Origin: Paracoccus seriniphilus
GTDB taxonomy: Bacteria > Pseudomonadota > Alphaproteobacteria > Rhodobacterales > Rhodobacteraceae
Assembly: GCF_028553745.1 (NCBI RefSeq)
Contig: NZ_CP067131.1
Coordinates: 248,001-312,000, forward strand
DNA length: 64,000 nt
Direction of reading: 5' to 3'
Part shown: piece after piece, positions 1-8,814 of the stretch
Position numbering within the stretch: position 1 is the stretch's first letter
How the letters are laid out: each line of letters begins with the position of its first letter
Translations under genes and position numbers: made by a program
Notes under the pieces: model-generated
What the model was told of the DNA's origin: nothing
The model's input: only the letters and a program-made list of their open reading frames with translations
Databases searched by the model: none

Positions 1-363
1 GCCGGTGACCTACGCCGATTTCGGCATCATCGGCAGTTCCTGAAGTTCTGCGGCATGGATCTTGCCACCGTGCAGTCCGGCATGTTTCGCGGGCAGAGCC
101 GGATCTCGAAGTACGGCAATGCCCGGCTGCGCCGCACGCTATGGATGGCCGGCCAGACGGCGGTCCAGACAAAGACCAACAGCTTTCGGGACAAGTTCGA
201 ACGCTACATCTCGAAAGACCGACACAACGCTCATCTGCGCCGCAAGGCCTACACCGCGATCGCGGCCAAGATGGCGCGCACCGTACACGCTGTGGTCAAT
301 CACGGCGAACCCTATCGCCCCTTCTTCGAGGGGGTGAGCCCAGGCGGAAGGACCTCTCTCTGA
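1..363 (+). mobile_element. IS110-family transposase, C-terminal part (cut by window start)
   Basis: The reading frame is open from base 1 and ends at 363, so only the C-terminal ~120 residues are visible. The stretch around RFRHHRQFLKFCGMDL and FRGQSRISKYGNARLRR resembles the C-terminal domain of IS116/IS110/IS902 transposases, which use a DEDD-type N-terminal catalytic domain (here beyond the edge) and a serine in the C-terminal domain. The element reads toward a truncated TonB receptor on the other strand. Its right end probably lies near base 600, where the receptor reading frame stops resembling its family. IS110 elements usually lack long terminal inverted repeats, and none is obvious here. 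Confidence 0.85.
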
Positions 364-599
364 CTGAGCCGTGGAGGCAGTCAATCTGACCTCGTAGATA
401 ATGTTCGGGCCTTCTGCTTGGGATTTGGGATCTCGTATTAAGGACGGTGAGGGCCGCCAGCGCGCGTACCCTGTGTTTGCTATGGATGAGATCATTTCTT
501 GACGGCAGAGCCCGTCTGGGCAACCTTATCAGGGTATCCGGACAGCCGGATGCCACACGACCTGCTGACCTAAGCAGCCAGATTTTCCTGACATAGGAC
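364..599 (+). mobile_element. Non-coding 3' end of the IS110-type element
   Basis: This stretch lies between the transposase stop and the point where receptor coding sequence begins. No gene is credible in it. The junction at about 599/600 is inferred from the receptor protein: reading leftward on the minus strand, family-like sequence (QIGAFVQGRFEFDN) changes to an unrelated nine-residue tail ending in a stop at 570. The exact element end and any target duplication cannot be fixed without the other half of the receptor or an empty site. Confidence 0.55.
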
Positions 600-1769
600 G
601 TTGTCGAACTCGAAACGCCCCTGAACGAACGCCCCGATCTGCTGGGTTTCCATGTTGCGCACGCCGGGTTCGAGATCACCGTAATTGTCAATCCGATAAT
701 CAGTGCTGTTGAAATCGACCCCGGCCGTGACGGTGCCCGCCCCCAGCGTAAAGGTGTTCTTCATCGAGCCACCGAAGACATCGGTTTGCAGGTCCATGTC
801 GCCATTGATCGCGCGGCCGCTTGCGACGGTTGCATAGTTGGGACGCCAGTATTCATTGCGGCTGAGATACAGCGCAACCTCGGGATCCCACATGTCCGTG
901 GGCGAGACCTCGGTATATTTCAGGCTCAGCGTATTGCTGGTCACCTTGAGCGGATAGACATCCGTGGCATGGCCCAGATCCATGTTCATCTTGATGACAC
1001 GATCAGCGTCATCCTTGTTGTAGTCATAGGCAAGTTCGATCCGGTGGCCTTCGAATTCATAGCCAAACTTGCTTATGACGCCCTGGGTGGCCGGGGCCGT
1101 GCCGGGCATGGTGTAACCATCGCCGGTTTCGTAATCGTCACCATCGGCTGCATGAAGCATGACAAACCAGTCGAAGCCGTCATAGACGCCATAGCCCGCC
1201 AGACTGGCCGAAACGCCGCGCCCATTGCTTCCATAGGACAGGCCGACCCGGCCACCCTGCGTCTGGCCATCGGTCAACAGATCGCGCGCGCCGACCGTTT
1301 CATAGCGCACCGCACCCGCCGCAGCACCAAAACCGGCATCGGCCGCAGCAGCACCCGCTTCGACCTCGACCGATTTCAGGAAGGCCGGATCGATCACATT
1401 CGAGCCGGTATGGTGCCAGCTGGTAACGCCCTGGGGCACGCCATCAACCGTCACGGCAAGATTGGATTGTTCCATCCCGAAGACATGGATGCGCTTGGAC
1501 GGCCCGGCACCACCGGAGACGGTGATCGCGGAATCCCGGGCAAAGAGTTCGGAAACATCCGCTGGCTGCATGTTCTCGATATCCTCGGATGACACGATGA
1601 CGCCGCCGGTTGCCTCGACATTTTCCTGCCCTTGCGCAACCAGGGTAATCGGATCAAGCGCAATGGTACCCGGCACTTGCGAGATCTGTGTCTCCTGCGC
1701 CAGAAGCGCGGTCGTCATGGCCATCAGCGAAACCCCGGCCAAGGGCATCACGCGTCGTAGCGTCATCAT
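570..1769 (-). pseudogene. TonB-dependent outer-membrane receptor, truncated by IS110-type insertion
   Basis: 399 residues from an ATG at 1769 (a GTG two codons earlier is also possible). The N-terminus has a signal peptide, then a plug domain (about residues 45-170) containing SEDIENMQPADVSELFA, a typical plug pattern, then the first beta-barrel strands. Intact siderophore receptors are about 650-750 residues, so roughly the last 300 are missing. The frame runs past FVQGRFEFDN into sequence from the neighbouring insertion element and stops at 570. Its place beside catecholate siderophore genes suggests it was the ferric-siderophore receptor (inference). The rest of the barrel may lie beyond the left window edge, past the element. 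As it stands the product cannot form a complete barrel. Confidence 0.8.
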
Positions 1770-1888
1770 GGTCACTCACTTTATTGTGTCGATACCGTTT
1801 CCCTAGGCAGCACCCCTCATAATTCCAACAATTTCACTTGGGTATTTACGCGAAGAAGAAGAATCTGTTGCAGGAATATCGCAGTAAA

Positions 1889-2569
1889 CTAGTCGGGAAT
1901 ATCTGCAGTGGCCAATGTCGTCACGCCAAGTGGCGCGTGATGCCACCAGACCATCCGCTCTCCGGCCGGCCCGGACAGCCTGAGACGCTGATCCTCGCAT
2001 GCCATGACGCGGTAATCCTTCATAAGGGTGCCGCATTGCCACTCTGCAGGCAGGGATTTGAAGGCTGCCTCCTTCGCGGAAAACACGAGAGTAAGATAGC
2101 TTTCCCATGAAAGATGGGTCGGGCGCATGGCCTCATCCTGCGGGGAGAGGATATGGCCGGCCAGCAATCGGGCCGTGGCGCTGTTCAGAGAGGTTTCGCA
2201 ATCAACGCCAATCCTGCGGCCACAATCCGAGGCCACGGCGATGGCGCGGCGTCGATCATGGCTGATCGAGCCAAGGATTCCTGTGGGCCAACGGGCATGT
2301 ATTTCACGCAGCCCGGAATGATCTGCAACACCCAGGCTGTTCAAAGCGTGCATCGCACATATCCTGCCTGCCAACCAGTCCCGCCGCCGCCGCCGGCCTG
2401 CGCCCTTCAATTCCGGGGAAAGATCGACCTGCAGATCCTTCTCCTCCCGTGACTGCAACAGCAAATGATCATCGAGATCCGTGTCGCTAAGATCATCGTA
2501 AATCAGTTCTGCCCATGTGATTTCCGCGACAGGAAATGGGGCGCCGGTCCTTATGCTGGCAATTCGCAT
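1889..2569 (-). CDS. entD: 4'-phosphopantetheinyl transferase, EntD/Sfp type
   Basis: 226 residues. The enzyme transfers phosphopantetheine from CoA to a carrier-protein serine. Family motifs are all present: WPTGILGSISHD (about 94-105), the metal-binding GVDCE (121-125, Asp123 and Glu125) and FSAKEAAFK (163-171, Glu167 and Lys171). The ATG at 2569 has AAGGAC just upstream. It sits between the truncated receptor (same strand, 120 bp gap) and the divergent isochorismate synthase gene. Its likely substrate is the stand-alone aryl carrier protein at 5443-5685. EntD-like proteins usually serve catecholate siderophore synthesis, which fits the neighbourhood. Confidence 0.9.
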   Translation of the reverse strand: MRIASIRTGAPFPVAEITWAELIYDDLSDTDLDDHLLLQSREEKDLQVDLSPELKGAGRRRRRDWLAGRICAMHALNSLGVADHSGLREIHARWPTGILGSISHDRRRAIAVASDCGRRIGVDCETSLNSATARLLAGHILSPQDEAMRPTHLSWESYLTLVFSAKEAAFKSLPAEWQCGTLMKDYRVMACEDQRLRLSGPAGERMVWWHHAPLGVTTLATADIPD

Positions 2570-2824
2570 GTCCTTGGGTCCCGTCAGTGTCGTGAAAAGA
2601 AATCGTGATGGGCAATTCTATATCTGACTTTTTTAGTTGACTATAGCGCGGGTTGAATACAAGTTCCGCCGCAAGTCGCAGTTCCCTCTGTGGCCCGGGT
2701 TGCCTGGCTTGTCTTGCGACGGCCTGCAACCCTCTCTGAAATTTCGCTGCGCGGCCTGCGCGGCTTCCGGATCGCCAGTCCGGCGCAACAACCAGATGCG
2801 AAGGTCAAGCTGAAGGGCTTTTCG
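2570..2824. promoter_or_regulatory. Divergent promoter region of entD and entC with AT-rich palindrome
   Basis: 255 bp between two siderophore genes read in opposite directions. At 2632-2645 (TTTAGTTGACTATA) there is an imperfect palindrome with arms TTTAGT and ACTATA, five of six positions paired, in an otherwise GC-rich context. It is a candidate iron-responsive operator, but I cannot assign it to Fur, RirA, Irr or IscR. A TTGACT at 2637-2642 could be a -35 element for entC, but no convincing -10 follows at normal spacing. An upstream in-frame start for entC at 2690 exists but lacks a ribosome site and gives non-conserved N-terminal sequence. Confidence 0.4.
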
Positions 2825-4000
2825 ATGAATTTCTCGCTGTTCGATGGTCGTGGATCCACTGTGGCCGCAGACGCCGGTCATTTCGCGTTCAGCGGCCCGT
2901 CCGGTCATATACGTGCGACAGGCGCCCCGGTCGCGATTGCACGGGGCAGCATTGATTCGCTGGAGACGAGGCTGGAAGGGGCCTTTGCCGATTGCGGTCC
3001 CGAAGCGATCATTGGCGGCGCCATGCCCTTTCATCGGCAGGATCACGACTATTTGTGGCTGTCGCCGCGCTGTACGGGTGTGTTCCAGACGGTAGAGCGT
3101 AGCCCGGCCGAAGCGGTCGCGGATCACGCCCGCGCCGATCCGCCTGTCGAGATTTATACCAATGCGGTGATCACAGCCCTGCGCCAGATGGAGCGAGAGC
3201 GCGATCTGCCCGAGGGATTGAAGAAAATCGTGCTTGCGCGTTCACTGAAGGTGCGCACTCAGGACCCGATTTCGCTGGACGGGCTGATGGCACGTCTGGC
3301 GGATGATCCCACGACCACCGCATTTCGGGTTGCCCTGCCCGATCCCGGGAATCGCCCTCGTGCCTTGATCGGCGCCTCGCCGGAACTGTTGCTGGAGAAG
3401 CGGGGGAACCACATCTGCTCTTACCCGCTGGCGGGTTCGGCACGCCGTTTGCCGGACACGGTCGAGGATGCCGATGCCTGTGCCCGCCTTGCAAGCTCGG
3501 AGAAGGATCGGCGTGAACATGCCATCGTTGTCGAATATATTCTGGATACGCTGGCACCATTTTGCGATCAGCTTGCCTGTCCGGACGGGACGCGGCTGAC
3601 CTGCACGCGCAGCATGTGGCATCTGGGCACGCGCATCACCGGCCAGGTCAAGGACCGGGACATGCCGGCAGCCCTGCTGGCTGCACATCTGCACCCGACA
3701 CCTGCCGTCTGCGGATCGCCGCGCGACCGTGCCGATGAATTGATCCGGCATCTGGAGCCGGTGCCGCGCGGCTTTTACGCGGGAGCCGTGGGCTGGAGCG
3801 CGAAGAATGGCGACGGGGCCTGGCATGTCGCCATACGTTGCGCCGATATCTGCGGTTGCGACGCCCGGCTGTTTGCGGGCGCCGGCATTATCCCCGGATC
3901 CGACCCAATGGCCGAAGCCGTTGAAACCGGCAGCAAGTTCGCGGCACTCTTGCGGGCTCTTGGCATGCCTGCCAGCGCGGCTCTGGCCGGACTGGAATGA
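2825..4000 (+). CDS. entC: Isochorismate synthase (EntC/DhbC)
   Basis: 391 residues. It converts chorismate to isochorismate, the first step toward 2,3-dihydroxybenzoate. Seen motifs: KIVLAR with the probable catalytic Lys134, GASPELL with Glu187, the conserved YPLAGSARR (200-208), HLGTRITG (266-273), LHPTPAVCG (289-297) and GFYAGAVGW (316-324). The C-terminal AGAGIIPGSDP and the following Glu-rich segment bind Mg-chorismate in the family. I chose the ATG at 2825 because GAAGGGC precedes it and the family's N-terminus aligns there. The gene overlaps the frame of the isochorismatase gene only by its last bases and is probably cotranscribed with it and entA. Confidence 0.93.
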   Translation: MNFSLFDGRGSTVAADAGHFAFSGPSGHIRATGAPVAIARGSIDSLETRLEGAFADCGPEAIIGGAMPFHRQDHDYLWLSPRCTGVFQTVERSPAEAVADHARADPPVEIYTNAVITALRQMERERDLPEGLKKIVLARSLKVRTQDPISLDGLMARLADDPTTTAFRVALPDPGNRPRALIGASPELLLEKRGNHICSYPLAGSARRLPDTVEDADACARLASSEKDRREHAIVVEYILDTLAPFCDQLACPDGTRLTCTRSMWHLGTRITGQVKDRDMPAALLAAHLHPTPAVCGSPRDRADELIRHLEPVPRGFYAGAVGWSAKNGDGAWHVAIRCADICGCDARLFAGAGIIPGSDPMAEAVETGSKFAALLRALGMPASAALAGLE

Positions 4001-4020
4001 TACGAACCCAAGGACACAAC

Positions 4021-4665
4021 ATGGCTCTGCCCGGTATTCCATCCTATACTCCACCATCAGAAAATCTGCCGGAAGCCCGCGCAAACTGGGAATTGCACCC
4101 GACCCGCGCGGCGCTGTTGGTCCATGACATGCAACGGTATTTCTGCCGTCCTTTCCCGCAGGAAGGCGCGCCACTGGACACGGTCGTGCGCAATATCGCA
4201 CGCCTGATTTCCGCCGCGCGCGGGGCAGATATTCCGGTCTTCTACACGGCCCAGAAGGGCAATCAGTTCGGGCCCGACCGTGGCTTGCAGGCAGATCTGT
4301 GGGGCCCCGGCATGCAGGCCATCCCTGAACATGAAGAGATCCTGCCCGAACTGGCCCCGCATCACCGGGATATCGTGCTGGTCAAACATCGCTATAGCGC
4401 CTTTCAGCGGTCAAATCTGGAAAGCCTGATGCGGGCCCGGGGACGTGATCAGCTGATCGTGACCGGTATCTATGCCCATATCGGTTGCCTCTGCACCGCT
4501 GCCGAGGCCTTTCAGCGGGACATCCAGCCTTTCGCGATTGCCGATGCGCAGGCAGATTTCGACGAAGCGCGCCACAATATGGCCATGGGCTGGGTGGCCT
4601 CTTGCTGTGGTGGCGTCCTGTCGACGCAAACGGCCCTGAACCGGATGGAGGCGACATGCAACTGA
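4021..4665 (+). CDS. entB: Isochorismatase without carrier domain (EntB N-terminal type)
   Basis: 214 residues. It hydrolyses isochorismate to 2,3-dihydro-2,3-dihydroxybenzoate and pyruvate. Family signatures are LLVHDMQRYF (33-41, Asp36), VLVKHRYSAF (catalytic Lys) and TGIYAHIGCLCTA, where Gly replaces the nicotinamidase nucleophile as in true isochorismatases. The start MALPGIPSY matches EntB N-termini and is preceded by AAGGA. E. coli EntB (about 285 residues) carries a C-terminal aryl carrier domain. Here the protein stops right after the hydrolase fold, and the carrier is a separate gene at 5443-5685. The stop overlaps the entA start by 10 bases. Confidence 0.92.
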   Translation: MALPGIPSYTPPSENLPEARANWELHPTRAALLVHDMQRYFCRPFPQEGAPLDTVVRNIARLISAARGADIPVFYTAQKGNQFGPDRGLQADLWGPGMQAIPEHEEILPELAPHHRDIVLVKHRYSAFQRSNLESLMRARGRDQLIVTGIYAHIGCLCTAAEAFQRDIQPFAIADAQADFDEARHNMAMGWVASCCGGVLSTQTALNRMEATCN

Positions 4666-5423
4666 CAGGATTCGAAGGACAGACCGCCCTTGTGACCGGA
4701 GCCGCAGGGGGCATCGGGCTGGCCATGGTCAGCCTGCTGCGTCAGTCGGGAGCCAATGTCCTTGCCACGGACATGCCACGCATGCTGGAGGGAAAATCCG
4801 ACGAACCCGGACTGATCTGGAAGCCATTGGATGTCCGCGACGAAAACGCGGTGGAACCTGCCTTCGAGGCCGCCGCTGCGGCATTCGGCCCGGTCAGCCT
4901 GGTCGCCCATGCAGCCGGCGTGCTGGCAAACAAGCCAATCCTTGAAACCAGTGCCGACGAATGGGCGCGCGTCACCCAGATCAACGCCGGTGGCACCTTT
5001 CATGTCCTGCGCGCGGCGGGTCGCCACATGGCGCCCCGGCGCAAGGGGGCGATCGTCGTGATCGGATCGAACGCGGGGGGGATTCCGCGCCAGGACATGG
5101 CCAGCTATGCCGCCTCCAAGGCGGCGGCGGCGATGTTGACGCGCTGTGCGGGTCTGGAATTCGCCCAGTTCGGCCTGCGCTGCAATCTGGTGGCACCAGG
5201 ATCGACCCTGACTCCGATGCAGACCGGCATGTGGGCAGATGATCGCGGTGCCGAACGTGTCATTGCGGGCGATCTGGCCACGCATCGCACCGGGATTCCT
5301 CTTGGCAAGCTGGCAACGCCAGAGGATATCGCTCAGGCGGCCATGTTCCTGCTGTCGGAACAGGCCGGCCATATCACCATGGCCGACCTCTATGTGGATG
5401 GAGGAGCGACGCTGCGGGCATGA
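4656..5423 (+). CDS. entA: 2,3-dihydro-2,3-dihydroxybenzoate dehydrogenase (EntA)
   Basis: 255-residue short-chain dehydrogenase that oxidises dihydro-DHB to 2,3-dihydroxybenzoate using NAD. It has TGAAGGIG near residue 15 (cofactor glycine loop), an HAAGV segment in place of NNAG, and the catalytic YAASK with an upstream Ser in VIGSNAG. The ATG at 4656 has GGAGG six bases upstream and overlaps the isochorismatase stop, as in translationally coupled ent operons. The assignment rests on family and on position directly after entC and the isochorismatase gene; the SDR fold alone would not fix the substrate. Confidence 0.9.
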   Translation: MQLTGFEGQTALVTGAAGGIGLAMVSLLRQSGANVLATDMPRMLEGKSDEPGLIWKPLDVRDENAVEPAFEAAAAAFGPVSLVAHAAGVLANKPILETSADEWARVTQINAGGTFHVLRAAGRHMAPRRKGAIVVIGSNAGGIPRQDMASYAASKAAAAMLTRCAGLEFAQFGLRCNLVAPGSTLTPMQTGMWADDRGAERVIAGDLATHRTGIPLGKLATPEDIAQAAMFLLSEQAGHITMADLYVDGGATLRA

Positions 5424-5442
5424 GCCGCAGTTGTCATCAGGC

Positions 5443-5685
5443 CTACAGCCGGGATTCGATCAGCGCCCACCAGGCATCAATCGACGGATTGGCCGCCAAT
5501 TCGTCGAAGCCAATCCTGACGCCGCGCTGTTCAAGTTCGGCGATCAGTTTCATGACGCTGACGGAATCGAGACCATACATCATCAGGTTCTCGTCCGGCA
5601 GGATCTCTTCCTCATCCTCGATCATTTCGGCAACCTTGCCGGCAAGCCATTCCCGATCAGGCGCATTGGGGAACATGTCGTTCAT
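5443..5685 (-). CDS. Stand-alone aryl carrier protein
   Basis: 80 residues, the size of a single carrier domain. The motif GLDSVSVMKL contains Ser41, the expected phosphopantetheine site, and the helix pattern around it matches EntB/VibB carrier domains. AAGGATC precedes the ATG. It follows entE on the minus strand with a 13-base gap, so loader and carrier should be cotranscribed. It is convergent with entA, with 19 bases between. Role: covalent carrier of 2,3-dihydroxybenzoate between EntE and the condensation enzyme at 7471-8814. It replaces the carrier domain missing from the isochorismatase. Confidence 0.88.
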   Translation of the reverse strand: MNDMFPNAPDREWLAGKVAEMIEDEEEILPDENLMMYGLDSVSVMKLIAELEQRGVRIGFDELAANPSIDAWWALIESRL

Positions 5686-5698
5686 TTCTTGATCCTTC

Positions 5699-7303
5699 CT
5701 AAACAGGTGCCGTTTCCAGACTGATCCGCAACTGGCGTTTGTCGGTCTTGCCCACCGCTGTCAGCGGCAGATGTTCCACGAAACGGAAGCGATCGGGCAG
5801 CTTGTAATCGGCGATTCCCATGCTGATCAGATGGCGGCGCAATTCCGAGGCTCGCATTTCTCGACGTGCCACGATGAAGGCACAGCTTTTCTCGCCCAGA
5901 GCCTCATCGGCAAAGCCGACAAGCGCGGCCTGCACAACCTCGGGGTGGCGCATCAGCAGATGTTCGATTTCTTCGGATGCGATCTTCTCTCCGCCGCGAT
6001 TGATCTGATCCTTCAGCCTGCCGACGACGCGCAGATTGCCACGCGGACCGCGCAGGACCAGATCACCACTGTAATAGAAGCCTTCGGCATCGAATGCGCG
6101 ACGGTTCTGTTCGGGGGCCTTGTAATAGCCGCGGAATGTATAGGGGCCGCGCACCGCCAGCTGTCCGGGCATACCGTCGGGCACCGGGTTGCCATTCTCA
6201 TCGAGGATCCTGACCTCGTCGTCGGGGCTGATCGGACGGCCCTGCGTGGTGAAGACGACCTCATCAGGATCGTCCAGCCGGGTATAATTGACCAGACCTT
6301 CGGCCATGCCGAACACCTGCTGCAGGCGACAGCCCAACACCTCTGGCACCTGGCGGGCCAGCGATTCCGCGAAACTGGCACCGCCGACAAGCAGATGCTC
6401 CAGCGGGCGCGGAGCACCCTGCGCGCTGGCCGCCTGCACCCAAAGGGCGACGGCGGCCGGAACCAGTCCCGTCATGGTGACGCCATGGCGCGCGATCAGA
6501 TCAAAGCAGGCGCGCGGTTCGGGGCCTGGGGCCATGACGACCGTGCCGCCGGCATGAAAGACACCAAGCGCACCGGGCGAACTCATCAGGAAGTTATGGG
6601 GCGCGGGCAAGGCGACCAGAAAGCGGGTCGCCTCGGACACGCCGCAGATATCGTTGCTGGCGCGCACACTGTAATCATAGTCATCATGGGTGCGCGGGAT
6701 CAGCTTGGGCGTGCCGGTACTGCCGCCCGACAGCTGAAAGAAAGCGACCTCGTCAGAGGCCGAGGGGCTGGCAGATCCGGGCAACAGGCTGTCTTGCGTG
6801 GTCCAGCTTGTCAGGTCATGCGCGGGATTGTCGTCCCCCAGCATCAGGATTTCCTCGATCCCGCCCAGCAGGGTCAGTTTGCGCAGAAAGGCGTCGTCTC
6901 CGAACAGGGGATGGCCGCGATCCGCAACAAGCAGCCGGGGGCGGATCTGCTCGGCATAAGAGGACAATTCGACCTGCCGATGGCTGTACAGCGCATTGAC
7001 CGGAGCCACGCCGATCTTCATCAGTGCCATGAAGGTGATATAGAATTCGGCGCTGTTGGGCAACTGGACCAGGGCCGTATCACCCTGCCCCAGGCCGACA
7101 TTGGCCAGTCGCGCCGCCAGATTGGTCGCCGCGCGGTCGAATGCGCTATAGGTGATCTGGCGGTTGCCACAGATGATTGCCACAGCCTCGGGACGCAACC
7201 GGGCCTGCCGTTCCACAGCCGCGCAAAGAGGTTTCCCGGCCCAATAGCCCCGCTGCCGGTATAGATCCGCCAATTCTTTGGGCCATTTCGTAAATTCTAT
7301 CAT
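5699..7303 (-). CDS. entE: 2,3-dihydroxybenzoate-AMP ligase (EntE/DhbE)
   Basis: 534 residues, the usual family length. It adenylates 2,3-dihydroxybenzoate and loads it on the carrier thiol. Motifs: ATP loop LSGGSTGTPK (191-200), APHNFLMSSPG (from about 234) with Asn237 at the position that recognises the aryl acid in EntE/DhbE, the GRLKDQINRGGEKI hinge, and the C-terminal catalytic Lys in TAVGKTDKRQL. The gene precedes the stand-alone carrier and diverges from the condensation gene. The start codon has only a weak ribosome site, but it gives the family N-terminus with a WP motif (FTKWP). Confidence 0.94.
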   Translation of the reverse strand: MIEFTKWPKELADLYRQRGYWAGKPLCAAVERQARLRPEAVAIICGNRQITYSAFDRAATNLAARLANVGLGQGDTALVQLPNSAEFYITFMALMKIGVAPVNALYSHRQVELSSYAEQIRPRLLVADRGHPLFGDDAFLRKLTLLGGIEEILMLGDDNPAHDLTSWTTQDSLLPGSASPSASDEVAFFQLSGGSTGTPKLIPRTHDDYDYSVRASNDICGVSEATRFLVALPAPHNFLMSSPGALGVFHAGGTVVMAPGPEPRACFDLIARHGVTMTGLVPAAVALWVQAASAQGAPRPLEHLLVGGASFAESLARQVPEVLGCRLQQVFGMAEGLVNYTRLDDPDEVVFTTQGRPISPDDEVRILDENGNPVPDGMPGQLAVRGPYTFRGYYKAPEQNRRAFDAEGFYYSGDLVLRGPRGNLRVVGRLKDQINRGGEKIASEEIEHLLMRHPEVVQAALVGFADEALGEKSCAFIVARREMRASELRRHLISMGIADYKLPDRFRFVEHLPLTAVGKTDKRQLRISLETAPV

Positions 7304-7470
7304 CTTCGCAAGACCTTGTCCGATTCATTGCCCATGCGCCGCCCTGTGCGAGGCGACGAGCAGGCACCGTGGCATTGACGGCAGGGGATTCTTAAGTATT
7401 TTTGTCGGAAATTGTCAATCCGGTCGCGTAGCCCTGAATGCCAGGCCCCCCAATCCGCAAGGCACAGCAT
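7304..7470. promoter_or_regulatory. Divergent promoter region between entE and the condensation gene
   Basis: 167 bp. Reading right, TTGACG at 7375-7380 and TATTTT at 7397-7402 are separated by 16 bases, a reasonable sigma-70-type promoter for the condensation gene. The flanking sequence (TTCTTAAGTATTTTTG) is much more AT-rich than the surroundings, as expected for an iron-regulated promoter, but I see no clear operator palindrome. Confidence 0.4.
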
Positions 7471-8814
7471 ATGACCACGACCCGTCCGCCCCGCGACTGG
7501 CATGATCTGACGTTGGGACAGCTGGATTTCTGGCAAGAGGCCTGCGCCCATCCGGGAAAATCGGTCTCGACCGTTGCCCATGTCACGCGCCTCACCGATG
7601 TGCTGAACCGAGATGCCTTCACCAAGGCCGTCAATCGGGTCGCTGCTGAAGCCGGGGTCTTGTCTCTGCGTTTCCGGACCTGCAATGACGGGATCGTCCG
7701 CCAGACCGTCGACCCCACCCAGACTCCGAAGCTGCGCCATATCGACCTGCGGCAGGAAACGGACCCCGAGACCACGGCCCTGCACATGATGCAGGAGGAC
7801 ATCGACCTGGCGCTGGACCTGACGCGCGATCCGCTGTCGGCACAATGGCTGATCCAACTCGGGGCGCGGGAATGGCTGTGGTATTGTCGGGGGCATCACA
7901 TCTTTCTGGACGGCTATTCCATGTCGCTGATCGAAGGCCGCGTGGCCCGGCTTTACAATGCCGGCCTGTCGGGAGTTGATTCCGGACCTTCCTTCCTGCC
8001 CTTTGCAGATTATCTGCAGGAAGAGAACAGATACCGTGCCGGTCCGTGCCATGCCAGAGACGGCGAGTTCTGGCGCAATTATCTGGATGGCGCGACCGAT
8101 TTGCAGGTATTGCGCAAGGGCGATGAGGATTACCCACAACACCCATATGAAAGCTGCATCGAGCTTGCGCATCTTGTTCCCGCCCTGCGACAAATGGCCG
8201 AGCAACTGCGCCTTGGCTGGCCCGATCTGCTGACCCTGCTGAGCGGGATCTGGCTGTGGTCCTGTCCGGGCGAGGATCGCCGCAGCCCGCGCCAACCGCA
8301 GACCATCTGGCTGCCATTCATGGGACGAATGGGCAGCGTCAGCGCGTCGATCCCCGCAATGGTTGTGAATATCCTGCCCTTTCGGGTCGATGTGTCCGGC
8401 AGCCTGTCGCTATCCGAGCAGCTGGCCATCATGGCGGAGGATCGGCGCAGATGCAGACGACATGGGCGCTATCGGATCGAACAGATGACTTCAGATCGCC
8501 GGATTGGCGAAGCGAAACGGTTTTTCTTTTCTCCTCTGGTGAATGTGCTGCCCTTTGAAACCTCGGAACTTTCTGGCTGCCGGACCGAACGCAGGGTTCT
8601 GGCCGCCGGACCCGGCGACGGTTTCAATGTCAGCTTTTCGGCACGCAATGACGGCAGCGGGCTGGCACTGATCATTGAAGCCGATCCCGCGCTGACCTCG
8701 GCCACGCTTTTCGTCCGTCAGGTCGAAGAGTTCCCACGTTTTCTTGACAACGCCCTTCGGCAGGTCAGCGAACGTTCAGTCGATGAGCTTTGCGCCTGTC
8801 TTCAACCCTGCTGA
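7471..8814 (+). CDS. Free-standing NRPS condensation enzyme, VibH-like
   Basis: 447 residues, a single condensation (C) domain with no adenylation or carrier domain. The active-site motif HHxxxDG is present as HHIFLDG (142-148). Free-standing C domains such as VibH join carrier-bound 2,3-dihydroxybenzoate to a soluble amine instead of a second carrier, for example norspermidine in vibriobactin synthesis. With EntE and the separate carrier nearby, the expected product is a mono- or bis-DHB amide; the amine is unknown. The ATG at 7471 is preceded by AAGG; an in-frame ATG at 7438 lacks a ribosome site. The 3' end overlaps galM by 13 bases, tail to tail. Confidence 0.87.
   Translation: MTTTRPPRDWHDLTLGQLDFWQEACAHPGKSVSTVAHVTRLTDVLNRDAFTKAVNRVAAEAGVLSLRFRTCNDGIVRQTVDPTQTPKLRHIDLRQETDPETTALHMMQEDIDLALDLTRDPLSAQWLIQLGAREWLWYCRGHHIFLDGYSMSLIEGRVARLYNAGLSGVDSGPSFLPFADYLQEENRYRAGPCHARDGEFWRNYLDGATDLQVLRKGDEDYPQHPYESCIELAHLVPALRQMAEQLRLGWPDLLTLLSGIWLWSCPGEDRRSPRQPQTIWLPFMGRMGSVSASIPAMVVNILPFRVDVSGSLSLSEQLAIMAEDRRRCRRHGRYRIEQMTSDRRIGEAKRFFFSPLVNVLPFETSELSGCRTERRVLAAGPGDGFNVSFSARNDGSGLALIIEADPALTSATLFVRQVEEFPRFLDNALRQVSERSVDELCACLQPC

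Follow-up and report, generated by a model that had tools for sequence, protein, structure and literature searches.

A 2,3-dihydroxybenzoate locus of Paracoccus seriniphilus with a VibH-like amide synthase, no linked modular synthetase and an unlinked EntF-like protein

What is made by a siderophore locus that holds the genes for making and loading 2,3-dihydroxybenzoate (DHB) and one free-standing condensation enzyme, with no modular nonribosomal peptide synthetase (NRPS) beside them? Such a locus lies at positions 1889–8814 of a 64,000-nucleotide stretch of the Paracoccus seriniphilus genome (NZ_CP067131.1, 248,001 to 312,000, forward strand; the window). It is read here, with a probability of roughly 0.7, as a locus that makes DHB, loads it and supplies two release enzymes. 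The VibH-like enzyme of the locus would give a bis-DHB-polyamine, and an EntF-like synthetase encoded on another contig would give enterobactin. The genes of the locus are as follows.

1889–2569, minus strand: 4'-phosphopantetheinyl transferase (PPTase, EntD-like), 226 amino acids; Pfam 4PPT_N 6.7e-14, ACPS 6.5e-6; 98 bits on the NCBIfam EntD model, below its cut-off of 169.
2825–4000, plus strand: isochorismate synthase EntC/DhbC, 391 amino acids from ATG 2825; Chorismate_bind 7.2e-63; TIGR00543 isochor_syn 240 bits, above its cut-off of 225.
3997–4665, plus strand: isochorismatase, 222 amino acids, without the C-terminal aryl carrier of EntB; Isochorismatase 1.2e-39 as sole Pfam match.
4656–5423, plus strand: EntA (short-chain dehydrogenase/reductase), 255 amino acids; TIGR04316 dhbA 284.6 bits, somewhat below its cut-off of 300, best among 218 families.
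5443–5685, minus strand: free-standing aryl carrier, 80 amino acids, serine site GLDSVSVMK; PP-binding 7.2e-13; best PDB relative the EntB chain 2fq1, 1.9e-9.
5699–7303, minus strand: 2,3-dihydroxybenzoate-AMP ligase EntE, 534 amino acids; NF008192 836.9 bits (cut-off 783) and TIGR02275 774.6 bits (cut-off 723.55); AMP-binding Pfam match.
7438–8814, plus strand: VibH-like free-standing condensation enzyme (amide synthase), 458 amino acids, motif HHIFLDG; Condensation 4.1e-39; VibH 1l5a 2e-62 against EntF 1.4e-35.

The open reading frame of entC begins at GTG 2690, with ATG 2825 as the likelier start; ATG 4656 is the likelier start of entA. Both NCBIfam models exceeded by EntE describe (2,3-dihydroxybenzoyl)adenylate synthase, and its best PDB relative is 3o82, 'Peptide arylation enzyme' (5.3e-213). 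The PPTase, carrier and entE genes are read from the minus strand, the entC, isochorismatase, entA and vibH-like genes from the plus strand. With DHB genes, a VibH-like enzyme and no modular NRPS in the locus, the content is that of a brucebactin-type (Type II NRPS) locus. The DHB genes, separate 80-residue carrier and entE named in the initial annotation are all present with the right domains, and its VibH-like single condensation domain is borne out by VibH as best solved relative.

The Condensation family is the sole Pfam match of the VibH-like enzyme; no adenylation (A), peptidyl carrier or thioesterase domain is fused to it. Against solved structures it scores 215 bits with VibH (PDB 1l5a), 131 with ObiF1 and 126 with EntF, and is thus nearer VibH than the condensation domains of modular NRPSs. 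Its three NCBIfam matches are all modular NRPS models, the best being MxcG with 228 bits, far below the cut-off of 2300. In an alignment of 42 sequences (the window, 38 relatives and 3 outgroups) the His, His, Asp and Gly of HHxxxDG and the Asn aligned with VibH N335, residues taken here to have their usual roles, are identical in 42/42. The third residue of the motif is Ile in 37, in agreement with the HHIxxDG reported for amide synthases (PMC7962358).

The ratio of nonsynonymous to synonymous substitution rates (dN/dS) of the VibH-like gene was computed for pairs of loci. Where both genomes lack EntF and tandem-Cy synthetase (described below), three pairs of relatives give 0.171, 0.173 and 0.159; the window and locus L038 give 0.184, with dS saturated (1.75). 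Across these four pairs EntE and EntA give 0.08–0.17. Three other pairs give 0.144, 0.179 and 0.313 for VibH; one pair yielded no value. The VibH values fit purifying selection rather than decay. A decayed remnant is rejected, the gene being intact in the window, conserved, and low in dN/dS in relatives. A VibH-type enzyme with conserved residues, accompanied by an EntE and a carrier of its own but by no linked NRPS, is best read, as initially proposed, as the maker of an amide between DHB and a free (poly)amine.

The search of the window genome with the Condensation family gave four candidates, all scored, and three matches: the VibH-like enzyme and two condensation–adenylation–thiolation–thioesterase (C-A-T-TE) synthetases, both on contig C1. 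Contig C3, which carries the window, gave no condensation match besides the VibH-like enzyme; an NRPS hidden just beyond the window, a finding that would have spoken against the proposal, is rejected on this result. A tandem-Cy synthetase of the parabactin/vibriobactin type with an A domain was not found among the three matches. The initial remark that the larger NRPS required for parabactin is not in view therefore stands for the whole genome. The initial claim that EntF, VibF and DhbF are lacking holds for the locus and for the tandem-Cy type and fails for the genome, contig C1 encoding an EntF-like synthetase.

This EntF-like protein (L004:8580-12464, 1294 amino acids) has the order C-A-T-TE and, in an alignment along its length, is 37% identical to E. 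coli EntF (466 of 1245 aligned residues). It has the E. coli EntF segments FDVSVW, HFVPSML, FCSGE and NLYGPTEAAVDV, in which the residues of the serine pocket lie. In length, domain order and pocket it is what a split enterobactin pathway calls for, an EntF with C-A-T-TE architecture and serine specificity. Its gene is surrounded by a TonB receptor gene that exceeds the siderophore-receptor cut-off (TIGR01783) but not that of the Fiu model, by PKHD oxygenase, FMN dehydrogenase and esterase genes, and by periplasmic-binding and FecCD transport genes. DHB genes were not found among the open reading frames scanned around it. The window EntE is the sole good match in the genome (the next is 30% identical), as is the window EntC (others 30–33% identical over less than half its length), and the aryl carrier is the sole match at E <= 0.1. 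The EntF-like protein therefore relies on the window locus or is idle, and with it and the unique DHB genes of the window, enterobactin is also expected.

The second C-A-T-TE synthetase (L005:2244-6479, C1, minus strand) lies about 6 kb from the EntF gene. At its upstream end is a PPTase-like match that stays below cut-off. It is rejected as a missing partner of the locus on account of two neighbours (an alcohol dehydrogenase and a beta-propeller-like protein), of an HHxxxD motif instead of a Cy-like one, and of pocket residues that resemble a glycine code.

The pathway predicted from these genes runs as follows. EntC, the isochorismatase and EntA would make DHB. The PPTase would arm the separate carrier, and EntE would load DHB onto it. 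From the carrier, the VibH-like enzyme would pass DHB to primary amine groups of a free polyamine. Spermidine is the likeliest acceptor and two acylations are probable; the product would then be a brucebactin-like bis-catecholate, equal to the bis-DHB-spermidine core of parabactin. With no tandem-Cy synthetase found, synthesis is expected to end at this stage and not to proceed to parabactin. The loaded carrier would also supply the EntF-like serine synthetase on C1 in trans, giving enterobactin.

As to the amine, the genome encodes a carboxynorspermidine/carboxyspermidine decarboxylase (CASDC) just above its family cut-off and, adjacent to it, a dehydrogenase of the carboxynorspermidine-synthase (CASDH) family. 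According to PMC11999265, the P. denitrificans enzyme pair of this route makes spermine in E. coli, in lesser amount than spermidine, and parabactin contains spermidine. Taken together, the carboxyspermidine-route homologues and that report make spermidine the best guess.

The arrangement of the locus is a trait of the genus. VibH-like matches of at least 43% identity occur in 39/125 Paracoccus genomes, the window's included, and the loci of the 38 others were fetched. EntC, EntB and EntA on the plus strand, carrier and EntE on the minus strand and VibH on the plus strand follow one another as in the window in 36/38. The arrangement is not due to chance, since all six genes keep order and orientation in so many loci. 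Two loci show an incomplete DHB gene set in the 19.9 kb fetched: L044 (G035) has a VibH-like gene and none of the others, and L043 (G017), at a contig start, has only EntC beside the VibH-like gene.

The spacing between the EntE and VibH matches in the 36 loci is 100–228 bases in 30, 4362–4537 in four and distorted by frameshifts in two. The four long gaps (L046, L048, L052, L070) contain a synthetase of about 1400 amino acids, with full-length matches in G052, G056, G057 and G099. With the best four candidates per genome scored, tandem-Cy synthetase matches (44–100% identity) occur in at least 10 of the 125 genomes, in two of them in pieces.

The 39 VibH genomes fall into five classes. In thirteen, the window's among them, an EntF orthologue occurs without a tandem-Cy match; five have both, and four a tandem-Cy match only. 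Twelve yield just one condensation match genome-wide. The last five have neither EntF nor tandem-Cy synthetase and more than one condensation match, which in G023 may be pieces of VibH. The twelve single-condensation genomes are rated 99–100% complete, and all except G035 carry the full six-gene locus; one of them, G078, has an in-frame TGA within the VibH match. Across the genus both EntF and VibH occur in 18 genomes, VibH only in 21, EntF only in 18 and neither in 68. G053 has EntF and a tandem-Cy match, and its sole match to the VibH query is the condensation domain of EntF.

In Pfam searches the synthetases of the long gaps and of Rhodovulum show an A domain preceded by Condensation matches, in two stretches for L046 and in a single one for L070 and for the Rhodovulum protein. 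Five such proteins were aligned: L046, L048, L070, Rhodovulum L078 and an unlinked 1906-residue protein of L082. Both N-terminal domains carry DxxxxD and lack HHxxxDG, which makes these proteins tandem Cy-like synthetases; the full DxxxxDxxS is present in the second domain of L046 and L048 only. The Rhodovulum synthetase occupies the same EntE–VibH gap, and those of Roseibium and Agrobacterium lie directly upstream of VibH. The carrier is separate from the isochorismatase in Paracoccus and Rhodovulum (L078) and lies within the isochorismatase gene in Roseibium and Agrobacterium (L079, L080). The Rhodovulum carrier is absent from the gene table used.

In a tree built from EntE and VibH (42 taxa, 950 columns) the window pairs with L038 (support 1.00), within a clade where a linked synthetase is not seen. 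The taxa with a VibH-adjacent tandem-Cy synthetase are the outgroups, Rhodovulum, L070 and the Paracoccus clade that branches first (L046, L048, L052). Counted by eye, loss alone takes about four losses, and about three changes suffice where gains are allowed; a single event is rejected. Number and direction of the changes are not settled, because several deep nodes are weak (0.05, 0.21, 0.24, 0.53). Loss is preferred because the outgroups too have the synthetase directly upstream of VibH, and the NRPS-free form probably arose by repeated loss of it. The fuller scenario is offered tentatively, at slightly less than even odds: a vibriobactin/parabactin-type pathway was shortened several times in Paracoccus by loss of the synthetase between EntE and VibH, leaving about 11 genomes with a free-standing condensation domain as the only condensation enzyme found, and in the window strain the free carrier feeds both VibH (C3) and EntF (C1).

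The same distribution allows another reading, in which the locus does no more than provide EntF on C1 with DHB and carrier, the VibH-like gene being a useless leftover of a lost parabactin-type pathway. An EntF is indeed present, with the window as the sole good DHB supply found; a tandem-Cy synthetase, for which the window genome gave no match, adjoins VibH in four Paracoccus and three outgroup loci; and EntF and VibH co-occur above chance in the genus (p 0.006, uncorrected for kinship). However, the VibH-like gene is intact in the window, with the invariant active site and the low dN/dS in relatives given above, and the twelve genomes with VibH as sole condensation domain found have no EntF to feed, 11 of them retaining the six-gene locus despite the TGA in G078. 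Mere supply to EntF is thus quite improbable. A parabactin-like oxazoline made through an NRPS missed in the assembly has in its favour that five VibH genomes carry VibH and the tandem-Cy match on different contigs, although G020, G026 and G118 among them are drafts of 100–270 contigs in which linkage is unproven. Against it, the window assembly is rated 100% complete in five contigs, its condensation matches are VibH and the two C-A-T-TE proteins only, and the Condensation family does pick up the tandem-Cy proteins of relatives; such a product is very improbable.

Use of another amine (homospermidine, putrescine, diaminopropane or other), giving a new mono- or bis-catecholate, is unlikely, although it fits an enzyme with only 60% identity to its nearest relative. 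The VibH homologue SchH accepts more than one amine (PMC7962358). P. denitrificans, however, makes spermidine catecholates (PMC13251462, PMC11999265), and the spermidine-route homologues are present in the window genome.

Several observations weigh against the reading with two release enzymes. The CASDH homologue is below its cut-off, with 412 of 800 bits, and donor-site residues show no clear correlation with the amine used (PMC7962358). The position counted as VibH W264, proposed in the same source as important for carrier contact, is Met in 30 of the 42 aligned sequences, the window's among them, and Trp in two. The EntF-like protein scores 826 bits on the NCBIfam EntF model, far below the cut-off of 2400. 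An MbtH-type protein (PF03621) was not found in the genome, the E. coli and B. subtilis controls being positive; E. coli EntF works with such a protein, and enterobactin output may accordingly be weak. Finally, the gene for a TonB receptor that flanks the locus is interrupted; the intact copy in L038 is nearer heme- than siderophore-receptor models, all below cut-off.

1–363, plus strand: 3' end of an IS110-family transposase gene, inside the receptor gene (L006:11042-12364); NF033542 227 bits, above its cut-off of 140.
570–1775, minus strand: TonB-dependent receptor, N-terminal part of the interrupted gene; Plug 4.3e-16.

Window coordinates equal L006 coordinates minus 12001, and the interrupted receptor region as a whole corresponds to L006:10139-13776. 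The intact L038 receptor has 669 residues: residues 1–392 match window positions 1775–600 and residues 372–669 match L006:11038-10142, with the IS110 transposase gene between. With the gene broken and its relative leaning towards heme models, the receptor does not count as evidence of catechol uptake. Should this siderophore have been its ligand, uptake through it has presumably ceased, and the receptor encoded next to EntF on C1 may substitute.

The window locus belongs to a known kind, the VibH-dependent catecholate loci without modular NRPS, in a genome that also has an unlinked EntF. It resembles the vibriobactin locus of Vibrio cholerae (VibH) and the serratiochelin system (SchH) in a free-standing condensation domain that acylates a polyamine with DHB taken from an aryl carrier, a function assigned to the window enzyme by similarity; with VibH, its best PDB match, it shares HHIxxDG and the conserved Asn. 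It differs from the vibriobactin system in that a VibF-type tandem-Cy synthetase was not found in locus or genome, in the Met at the W264 position and in an unfused carrier, whereas in VibB the carrier is fused to the isochorismatase.

In Rhodovulum sp. MB263 (plasmid pRSMBA, L078) the gene order agrees with that of the window for the DHB genes, the separate carrier, EntE and VibH. EntE and VibH are, however, separated there by a synthetase of 1455 residues with one A and two Cy-like domains, and the transport genes are followed by a protein that combines a carrier and a condensation domain. A VibH-like gene (41% identity) also occurs on an E. coli plasmid typed as conjugative (L086, NZ_CP146684.1), beside genes for an adenylation-domain synthetase, FepB, a permease and a TonB receptor.

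The brucebactin locus of Brucella (vibH/entF, dhbE, dhbB, dhbA, entD) likewise combines DHB genes with one VibH-like enzyme. Its product is described as unclear in structure and probably a monocatechol (PMC12279742), as spermidine-based (PMC11999265) and as a parabactin intermediate (PMC13251462). P. denitrificans PD1222, of the same genus and also with dhb genes apart from entF, produces enterobactin, parabactin and brucebactin (Robes et al. 2026, PMC13251462); it differs in making parabactin, the window genome having yielded no tandem-Cy synthetase. That paper's text does not mention VibH. Paracoccus is included in the amide-synthase tree of PMC7962358, where the parabactin cluster was still to be identified. 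New here are the genus-wide class table, the twelve genomes with VibH as sole condensation domain found, the likely tandem-Cy loss and the IS110-interrupted receptor.

A locus that looks incomplete thus becomes a clear, testable prediction, and an NRPS-free locus is seen to reveal little about the genome as a whole. Strains with VibH as sole condensation domain would make DHB-polyamines and nothing longer; those with VibH and EntF would make enterobactin as well; those with a tandem-Cy synthetase in addition would make parabactin-like compounds. The genus would offer a natural series for a siderophore pathway losing or gaining an assembly-line step, and for one loaded carrier shared between enzymes.

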